The notes under the pieces: model-generated
What the model saw: only the letters and a program-made list of their open reading frames with translations
Database searches by the model: none
Told to the model about the DNA's origin: nothing
Source: Methanoculleus formosensis
GTDB taxonomy: Archaea > Halobacteriota > Methanomicrobia > Methanomicrobiales > Methanoculleaceae
Reading direction: 5' to 3'
DNA length: 64,000 bases
NCBI RefSeq assembly: GCF_025384765.1
Contig: NZ_VHLL01000002.1
Span: 124,001 to 188,000 of the forward strand
In this document: piece by piece, positions 9,396 through 31,753 of the stretch
Layout: the number at the start of each line of letters is the position of its first letter
Position numbering within the stretch: the first letter of the stretch is position 1
Program-made: the position numbers and the translations under genes

Positions 9396-9551
9396 TCACG
9401 TTTCACCGACCGGGACCTGCATCACCGGGATTGGTAGTGTGGTGATCCTCACTGGCGTCAGGTTAAGGCCATGGACATCATCCTTCACACTCTTACCCGG
9501 GCAACTCGTCCGGGTAAGGCTCCCGGAGGTCATCACATTGTCCCATGAGCT
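9396..9551 (-). pseudogene. Possible 3' remnant of an IS200/IS605-type tnpB
   Basis: A minus-strand frame ends at 9396 with a tail reading ...GLNLTPVRITTLPIPV... and MQVPVGET-stop, directly followed by a GGCTTTAGCC-type hairpin motif as found at ends of IS605-group elements. The frame meets a stop (TGA) at about 9552 and no catalytic domain remains. The transposase assignment rests on the tail style and the adjacent hairpin only, so it is tentative. Confidence 0.3.
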
Positions 9552-9594
9552 TCACACACCACCGTTGCCAGGGATTCATGTCATGGTAGAGTCA

Positions 9595-9717
9595 TGCCGA
9601 AAAGAACGACAACCTCACGCGAAGCCGCAAAGTCCGGTGCTGCCGATTCCGTTGGGTCGCTATGCGAGATTGATGAGTCGATTGCAGAGGCTATTATTAG
9701 CGAAGTACTGAGACCGA
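9595..9717 (+). other. Unrecognised short frame between remnants
   Basis: From an ATG at 9595 the plus strand reads MPKRTTTSREAAKSG, continuing as a Glu/Ile-rich segment until it overlaps the end of the relE gene. The amino-acid composition looks protein-like but there is no ribosome site or recognised domain. It could be a decayed gene fragment. Confidence 0.2.
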
Positions 9718-25491: not shown

Positions 25492-25563
25492 AGCCAAGGC
25501 CCGGACTTGAACCGGGGTGTAGTTGATCTGCAGTCAACCGCGTGGCCGCTCCGCCACCTTGGC
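25492..25563 (-). tRNA. tRNA-Cys (GCA)
   Basis: Minus strand: acceptor GCCAAGG with CCTTGGC, anticodon loop CTGCAGA (GCA), T-arm GGTTCAAGTCC. The discriminator base is U, the tRNA-Cys identity element. CCA is not encoded. It lies between 23S and 5S, three bases from the 5S gene. Confidence 0.93.
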
Positions 25564-28863: not shown

Positions 28864-30330
<1,467 letters not shown>

Positions 30331-30399: not shown

Positions 30400-30474
30400 C
30401 CAACGTCAGAATCAACCCGCACAATGGCGGTCGTGTTGATTCTCCATCATCAGGATAACAATGTTTATTTCATA

Positions 30475-30490
30475 AGTATTTAAACATTTG
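30475..30490 (-). promoter_or_regulatory. rRNA promoter P1 (TATA)
   Basis: Minus-strand CAAATGTTTAAATACT; the closest of six similar boxes, ~145 bases before mature 16S. An A-rich BRE-like GAAACAAATG and CTGATGCAGG precede it. Confidence 0.75.
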
Positions 30491-30610
30491 TTTCCTGCAT
30501 CAGATTCGAGAACGAATCTCGAACCTTCATATCCATCTTGAAAGCAGGGAACTCGGCCCAACCAGGTCGCGAGATTCCACCTGCGCAGGAATTAACGTTT
30601 GTGCTTCAAC

Positions 30611-30626
30611 ACATATAAACGTTTTC
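30611..30626 (-). promoter_or_regulatory. rRNA promoter P2 (TATA)
   Basis: Minus-strand AAAACGTTTATATGTG, about 135 bases upstream of P1. The palindrome CCTGCGCAGG (30580-30589) lies about where transcription should begin. Confidence 0.7.
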
Positions 30627-30756
30627 ATCCCACCACAGGATCCAGCCCGGAGATTCCGAGTTGGAACCCCGGCCCGAATGAGGAGTTCGTCCGGAATTTA
30701 GCGCTCCGGAGCCCCGCATACTTCACCTGTGCAGGAACATATGTTTGCGAGTTATC

Positions 30757-30772
30757 GCATATAAACATTTGC
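30757..30772 (-). promoter_or_regulatory. rRNA promoter P3 (TATA)
   Basis: Minus-strand GCAAATGTTTATATGC, ~147 bases upstream of P2; near-palindrome CCTGTGCAGG at 30726-30735 in the start region, as for P2. Confidence 0.72.
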
Positions 30773-30870
30773 TCCCATCCAGATTTTGGGCCGGAGATCC
30801 ATATTCTCCGGCCCGTGCACCCGCATCGCGGGGCACACATCGCCTTGTGAGAATATACGTTGAATCTCCG

Positions 30871-30886
30871 AGCATATAAACATTGT
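30871..30886 (-). promoter_or_regulatory. rRNA promoter P4 (TATA)
   Basis: Minus-strand ACAATGTTTATATGCT, ~113 bases upstream of P3, preceded by TGATGCAGGG as at P1. Confidence 0.72.
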
Positions 30887-31014
30887 CACCCTGCATCAGA
30901 CCCGACGAGATTGTCGGGCCCTCACAGCGGTTGAAGGGACACGAGATCAGACCACCCCCGAAGAGGCTGCACGACCCGAGCCCTGACAACACAGCCTTAC
31001 AATGTTGTCACCAA

Positions 31015-31030
31015 TGCTATATGAACATTT
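31015..31030 (-). promoter_or_regulatory. rRNA promoter P5 (TATA)
   Basis: Minus-strand AAATGTTCATATAGC, ~145 bases upstream of P4; one base off the common TTTATAT, so possibly weaker. GATGCAGGG precedes it. Confidence 0.6.
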
Positions 31031-31162
31031 CCCTGCATCGTCGGATCAAAGCACACGGCTTTGACCCCCATAGACGTTGAGATCTCCGGACGACCTGCGC
31101 ATTTTGCGCAGGAATCGAGCGGATTTCGCTCCCAACTTGACTATTACATGTTGATGCCGGAT

Positions 31163-31178
31163 GTATTTAAACATTTAC
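31163..31178 (-). promoter_or_regulatory. rRNA promoter P6 (TATA)
   Basis: Minus-strand TAAATGTTTAAATACA, ~148 bases upstream of P5; same core as P1. No further copy seen upstream. Confidence 0.68.
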
Positions 31179-31211
31179 CTCGCACCCAATCAGGAAACCG
31201 GGATCGTCCCG

Positions 31212-31753
31212 CAAAATCTCCAGGTTTCACCCTGTAAAATACCTCGCCGGGAACCCCGTGCGCCGGCGAGAACCTATGCGCGCAGCGCCGTCGAAGGTGA
31301 ATCCGGCATCATTATCGAGAACGCCCTGCAAAACACCCGACAATCTAAGACTTCTCCCGGGCCTTCCCCCTCGCATGCGTGCCCGGGATACGGCTTCACA
31401 CAGGGTATCGCCACAACCGCCCCCACCCCTCACGGTCGGGGAGGAGCGCGAAGCGCGGGTGAGGCGACGGGACAGAGGTGCCGCGAGAGGTGGAAAACAG
31501 GGAAGGTGAAGACCGCTCCACCACGAGTTGCCACCCCGGCGCACAGCATGAGGCGATGCTTGCAAGCGAGGGTTCTCTGCGAGAACAGGCCGGGTCACAG
31601 TAATTCGCGGCAACGCGCTCTTCGCGTGAGATCATAGTGCTATCTTCGCCCATTAACTCACGCAGAAGCACGCGGGAGAACGCGAAGAGAGGTCGATGAG
31701 TTGACGTTTTGAAGATTACATCAACCGTTTTAGCGAAGTACTGAGGCTGGAGG
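31212..31753. other. Spacer upstream of rRNA promoter array
   Basis: No supported gene. It includes a G/C-rich palindromic patch near 31425-31480 (GGAGCGCGAAGCGCGGGTGAGG). Frames here on both strands lack ribosome sites or recognisable domains. Confidence 0.4.

Follow-up and report, generated by a model that had tools for sequence, protein, structure and literature searches.

We know of no archaeal antitermination complex. How archaeal polymerases cross long untranslated rRNA without a complex of the bacterial type, and how polymerases that start at tandem rRNA promoters pass each other's promoters, are two questions posed by an operon on the minus strand of the window (the whole 64-kb stretch of DNA analysed here). 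This is an archaeal rRNA operon of the Methanoculleus type, in which Rfam and ARAGORN, with archaeal models, identify 16S, tRNA-Ala, 23S, tRNA-Cys and 5S genes. The 16S rRNA gene lies at 28864-30330 on the minus strand (Rfam RF01959, 1572.5 bits) and is preceded by six tandem TATA-type elements, P1 to P6, which stand at -159, -294, -440, -555, -700 and -846 and recur every 115-146 bp. The tRNA-Cys gene sits between 23S and 5S, at 25492-25563, and a group II intron D1-D4-7 match occurs at 9502-9613.

The TATA elements, all on the minus strand, are AATGTTTAAATA at 30477-30488 (P1, closest to the 16S gene), AACGTTTATATG at 30612-30623 (P2), AATGTTTATATG at both 30758-30769 (P3) and 30873-30884 (P4), AATGTTCATATA at 31018-31029 (P5), and AATGTTTAAATA again at 31164-31175 (P6, the most distal). 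Each was identified by its motif and by collinearity in 20 genomes of the same genus, where the array is collinear, with distances that hardly differ from one genome to the next, and P4 is eroded in two of the 20. With TATA promoters in series, the locus is on sequence grounds an archaeal tandem rRNA promoter array whose promoters and start sites are predicted, that of P6 lying about 25-28 nt downstream of its TATA element. Tandem rRNA promoters have long been known from Halobacterium cutirubrum (Dennis 1985, cited in PMC4983044), where, in the account given by the citing paper, several archaeal promoters likewise stand serially upstream of one rRNA operon; Methanoculleus differs from that report in its six collinear promoters and in having covarying hairpins in every interval. 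The P2 and P3 modules are duplicates, and in one genome (L008) their core sequences are near-identical, which suggests gene conversion between modules. Two dispersed elements lie beyond the array. One is a repeat between scpA and the rRNA leader (31596-31748, minus strand). It occurs at least seven more times in this genome and many times in relatives. The second, upstream of P6 (about 31386-31464, query positions 337-415), is found at many loci across the genus.

A sequence-only reading of this region had pointed to perfect inverted repeats beside P1, P3, P4, P5 and P6. All five are present on the minus strand, but the one at P6 is a chance occurrence, and a hairpin at P2 had been overlooked. 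Upstream of P1, H1 (GGTTCGAGA-TTCGT-TCTCGAATC, 30503-30525) is a real hairpin, although its conserved helix, GGTTCGAGA/TCTCGAATC, is offset from the AGATTCG/CGAATCT that had been claimed. H2, upstream of P2 (GGGCCGGGGTTCC-AACTC-GGAATCTCCGGGCTG, 30643-30675), contains G-U pairs; its core, GGGGTTCC-AACTC-GGAATCTC, forms eight pairs including G-U within a conserved 12-pair helix (covariation p=0.002). The 10-bp repeat at P3 lies at 30788-30814, just as described, in the H3 region (CGGGCCGGAGA-ATATGGA-TCTCCGGCCCA, 30787-30815), and the repeats CCCGAC/GTCGGG at P4 and TCAAAGC/GCTTTGA at P5 were also found as reported, the corresponding hairpins being H4 (GGCCCGAC-AATCTC-GTCGGGTC, 30899-30920) and the highly conserved H5 (GGGTCAAAGC-CGTGT-GCTTTGATCC, 31043-31067). 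In all relatives the 3' end of the hairpin is separated from the TATA element by 13-19 nt. The arms had been called unrelated, and H1-H5 indeed have no arm sequence or single fold in common, with the exception that the H2 and H3 arms in relatives are both GGGCCGGAGA-like, as is expected of duplicated modules.

The genome of the window makes a modest case by itself. In dinucleotide shuffles of the same 44-nt segments, the P3 hairpin was equalled in 0 of 400, and those at P5, P1 and P4 gave P=0.010, 0.025 and 0.043; neither P6 (P=0.24) nor P2 (P=0.34) was significant. A 5-bp hairpin is present in 33% of random 44-nt segments of the 64 kb, and the repeat at P6 (CGGGA-CGA-TCCCG, 31199-31211, minus strand) is therefore no more than chance would supply. 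It is unconserved, its arms being paired in 66% of cells among 20 relatives against 67.7% expected (p=0.64), and a hairpin at P6 was rejected as a general feature. This absence is what an RNA reading predicts, since the array transcribes nothing there. A separate candidate farther upstream of P6, CTCGCCGG/CCGGCGAG, was rejected as a general feature as well (52% paired in relatives); in the window's own genome it may be a terminator.

Covariation among the 20 same-genus genomes was judged against a tree-based null, in which each column evolved independently along a tree built from this region, at a site rate matched by parsimony (400 simulations). Combined, H1-H5 contain 52 pair-preserving double-change cells where 12.2 are expected, and H4, H2 and H1 each exceed all 400 simulations. 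The strongest covariation is that of H4 (98.8% paired; 16 double-change cells against 2.5 expected, p=0.002), followed by H1 (97.7% of cells paired; 15 against 3.6, p=0.002), H2 (11 against 2.7, p=0.002) and H3 (7 against 2.2, p=0.03; four pairs with a double change, p=0.012). H5 is paired in 96% of cells, with 24 G-U and no A-C cells; its double changes are not significant, the helix being so nearly invariant that there is little to test. The comparisons with orthologues and with shuffled sequences, to which the sequence-only reading had entrusted its hairpins, thus proved decisive site by site, upholding H1-H4, telling against P6, and finding H5 almost without variation. Judged by compensatory changes in H1-H4 and several other helices, the leader is a conserved structured RNA, and an Rfam covariance-model search, which matched only 16S, assigns it to no known RNA family.

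Singling out the repeats next to each promoter was, however, too narrow, as other helices in the intervals covary as strongly. Eight further helices are significant under the same null, and the promoter-adjacent hairpins are therefore the visible part of a continuous chain. Between the predicted start of P6 and P1 (30470-31150, minus strand) the leader is structured as a chain of helices with few U-tracts, and these helices fill all five inter-promoter intervals with two to five stem-loops per 115-146-nt module. Relative to column shuffles of each interval's alignment that preserve gaps and conservation, alifold z-scores from the P6-P5 to the P2-P1 interval are -8.2, -9.7, -7.7, -10.2 and -9.8, compared with -3.4 upstream of P6 and -2.0 between P1 and 16S. 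The fold of the 691-nt leader as a whole (z=-6.3) consists of local, self-contained stems. An all-pairs covariation search with a simulated null was underpowered at 20 sequences, few pairs reaching E<1, and its best B4 and B1 matches fall in H4, H1 and the P2 TATA stem. A candidate domain-closing helix between modules, TTCCTGC/GCAGGAA (B1 32-38/132-138), was rejected, having 16 A-C against 6 G-U cells and no double-change excess; its arms look like repeated DNA motifs.

Where the folding begins is informative. In single sequences folded in 80-nt segments and averaged over 19 genomes, the mean z is about 0 from -600 up to the P6 TATA element (position 0), falls to -3.3 at +30, the predicted P6 start, stays negative to about +720 (P1), and returns to about 0 before 16S. 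In six other operons or species, in which the distal TATA element stands at -580 to -782, the onset shifts with that element, mean z being 0.3 before it and -2.6 after. In addition, H4 is retained in both genomes with an eroded P4 TATA element (L037 and L048). The onset at the distal start, its shift with the distal TATA element and the survival of H4 indicate that the structure tracks the transcript, not the promoter.

A DNA palindrome is indifferent to whether a mismatch is G-T or A-C, whereas an RNA stem tolerates G-U only. In a strand-neutral set of pairs, predicted from both strands, the five intervals hold 236 G-U against 82 A-C cells, and slid partners, a control of the same base composition, give 1.38:1. 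Pair by pair, G-U is favoured by 78 of 99 and A-C by 21 (sign test, p=7e-9). In the block upstream of P6, 8 pairs favour G-U and 5 favour A-C, and P1 is balanced in this set (4:3). Better folding than in shuffles is also seen on the antisense strand, as it must be for any perfect hairpin, and the assignment of strand consequently depends on the G-U bias. Tolerance of G-U is strand-specific, and its excess, together with the onset at P6, indicates that selection acts on the rRNA-sense RNA made from the distal promoters and not on DNA. Covariation, a G-U asymmetry that is absent upstream of P6, and a folding excess from P6 to P1 are three independent tests that support selection at the RNA level. 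Through compensatory changes, sense G-U bias and folding onset at P6, they bear out the earlier suggestion of selection on hairpin structure in transcripts of distal promoters, and we regard structure and strand as established by comparison of the genomes.

What such a leader is for is less certain. We consider it probable that the repeats form hairpins in the RNA of a long pre-rRNA leader, one that folds fast, is free of terminators, and keeps distal polymerases moving. Six tandem promoters would feed one operon, and the predicted transcripts of P2-P6 would traverse the promoters downstream. Their read-through RNA may have been selected to fold almost immediately into a chain of local stem-loops, acting, as we infer, during transcription. 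Stem-loops behind RNA polymerase would limit backtracking; they would also leave the nascent untranslated RNA less open to R-loops and to aCPSF1/FttA, the terminator nuclease that binds U-tracts. Distal polymerases could thereby cross the downstream promoters without stalling or termination. The step from folding to elongation and anti-termination is drawn by analogy. For yeast RNA polymerase I it has been reported that rRNA structures close behind the polymerase promote forward movement and limit backtracking (PMC7427326), and there too a folded spacer in the nascent pre-rRNA is proposed to keep the polymerase moving (Turowski 2020, PMC7427326); that system is eukaryotic and has one promoter, whereas the Methanoculleus leader is archaeal and its folding starts from the outermost promoter.

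A serious rival, which we hold to be possible if doubtful, is that the folded leader serves pre-rRNA maturation, either by preventing mispairing of the variable leader with 16S or by providing a cleavage site or a platform for proteins. A leader that avoids interfering would be expected to consist of local, self-contained stems, and the stretch between P1 and 16S has no excess local folding, as expected if it is paired with distal sequence in the processing stem. For Haloferax it has been proposed that, once 16S has been cut out, the 5' leader is joined by ligation to the 23S precursor (PMC7038931). However, H1-H5 have neither a conserved sequence nor a common fold, and no Rfam match, which makes a specific protein or cleavage site unlikely, and transcripts from P1, which contain none of these hairpins, must nevertheless mature. 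Archaeal bulge-helix-bulge stems (PMC7038931) are likewise structured RNA in the pre-rRNA flanks, but they pair leader with trailer around 16S, whereas the stems described here are local and lie hundreds of nucleotides upstream. A box C/D-like sequence, CUGAUGAUGG ... UUCUGA, judged by eye, occurs in the 16S-proximal leader (30400-30452, minus strand) and may be the K-turn that has been described in ligated spacers of archaea.

The hairpins could alternatively be terminators, pause sites or attenuators that insulate the promoters from one another, and the ending of one hairpin 13-19 nt upstream of each of P1-P5 would suit such a function. We regard this as very unlikely. A stem followed by a U-tract, as in an intrinsic terminator or attenuator, is not what was found: no U-tract comes after any hairpin in the leader, which contains no terminator-like site (1.2 in shuffles), and runs of four or more T are depleted sixfold, the leaders of the 20 genomes, 13.2 kb in total, having 5 where dinucleotide shuffles lead one to expect 29.8 (runs of four or more A, 39 against 61.3). 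Folding, moreover, spans whole intervals and not merely promoter flanks. Archaeal terminators are U-tracts without hairpins, and aCPSF1 binds U-tracts (PMC8716108). The pausing or termination role that had been entertained for the repeats is accordingly not favoured. U-runs are scarce in mature 16S and 23S too, and the depletion may thus be general to rRNA-operon transcripts; it is weak in some other families. Taken with constant folding, the lack of U-tracts is most readily explained by a leader made for non-stop transcription, the function that we prefer.

In 12 of the 20 genomes (L004, L005, L007, L009, L011, L034, L037, L043 and L046-L049) the P6 TATA element has a T5-T7 run about 21-23 nt ahead of it, at a fixed place; this run is absent from the window's own genome. 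The run is possibly a terminator against read-in from the upstream smc-scpA genes, which under the non-stop transcription reading it would block. More tentatively, archaeal rRNA might be shielded from aCPSF1/FttA not by a protein complex but by a U-purged, continuously folded leader with a U-tract terminator upstream of it, a suggestion that we put forward with low confidence.

It is hardly tenable that the repeats act as DNA, giving each promoter a dyad binding site or a cruciform. Their place relative to the TATA element is fixed, but an operator or cruciform would be expected at every promoter and to be indifferent to strand, and neither was found: the repeat is missing at P6, the sole promoter not transcribed from upstream, the arms have no shared sequence, G-U is strongly favoured over A-C, and H4 outlasts an eroded P4 TATA element. 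A DNA role is possible at two dyads that join the TATA element to the start site (AAYGTTT..AAACRTT), at 30612-30596 (P2) and 30769-30740 (P3), where there are few G-U cells. The AACGTTT of the P2 TATA element pairs with an AAACGTT some 22 nt further downstream. These arms, in general form AAYGTTT (TATA element) and AAACRTT (near the start site), are 100% paired (covariation p=0.002) and co-vary between genomes (L004 versus L034; L046 versus L005 and L049). At P6 the TATA arm drifts without compensation. The covariation of the P2 TATA stem fits read-through RNA as well. Chance inverted repeats plus module duplication explain the P6 repeat and have the duplicated P2/P3 modules and some visible gene conversion on their side, yet covariation exceeds the tree null and each interval has a z of -8 to -10, so that they are almost certainly not the general explanation and are refuted for H1-H4.

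Among known systems, bacterial rrn antitermination (boxB-boxA-boxC with Nus factors; PMC10250234, PMC4807359) likewise uses a leader RNA element thought to protect untranslated transcription. In that system the hairpin precedes a conserved linear boxA that NusB/S10 recognises. The Methanoculleus leader differs in its many hairpins and apparently lacks, downstream of them, a linear box conserved as RNA in all modules; a GATGCAGG-like stretch follows H1, H4 and H5, but P2 and P3 have a different sequence there, and the stretch may belong to the promoter DNA. A search of Rfam and of open-licence papers returned no inter-promoter rRNA leader structure in archaea, and older subscription papers may cover parts. 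Excess folding upstream of 16S that is gone farther upstream also appears in other Methanomicrobiales and in Methanosarcina-like and haloarchaea-like genomes, which suggests that leader folding, found again in these other euryarchaea, is general, with the genomes tentatively assigned by 16S similarity and the signal nearest 16S being partly the processing stem. The leader offers a testable answer both to how archaeal polymerases would cross long untranslated rRNA and to how those from tandem promoters would pass one another's promoters, and with it the locus that methanogens transcribe most heavily gains a conserved RNA element that Rfam lacks.
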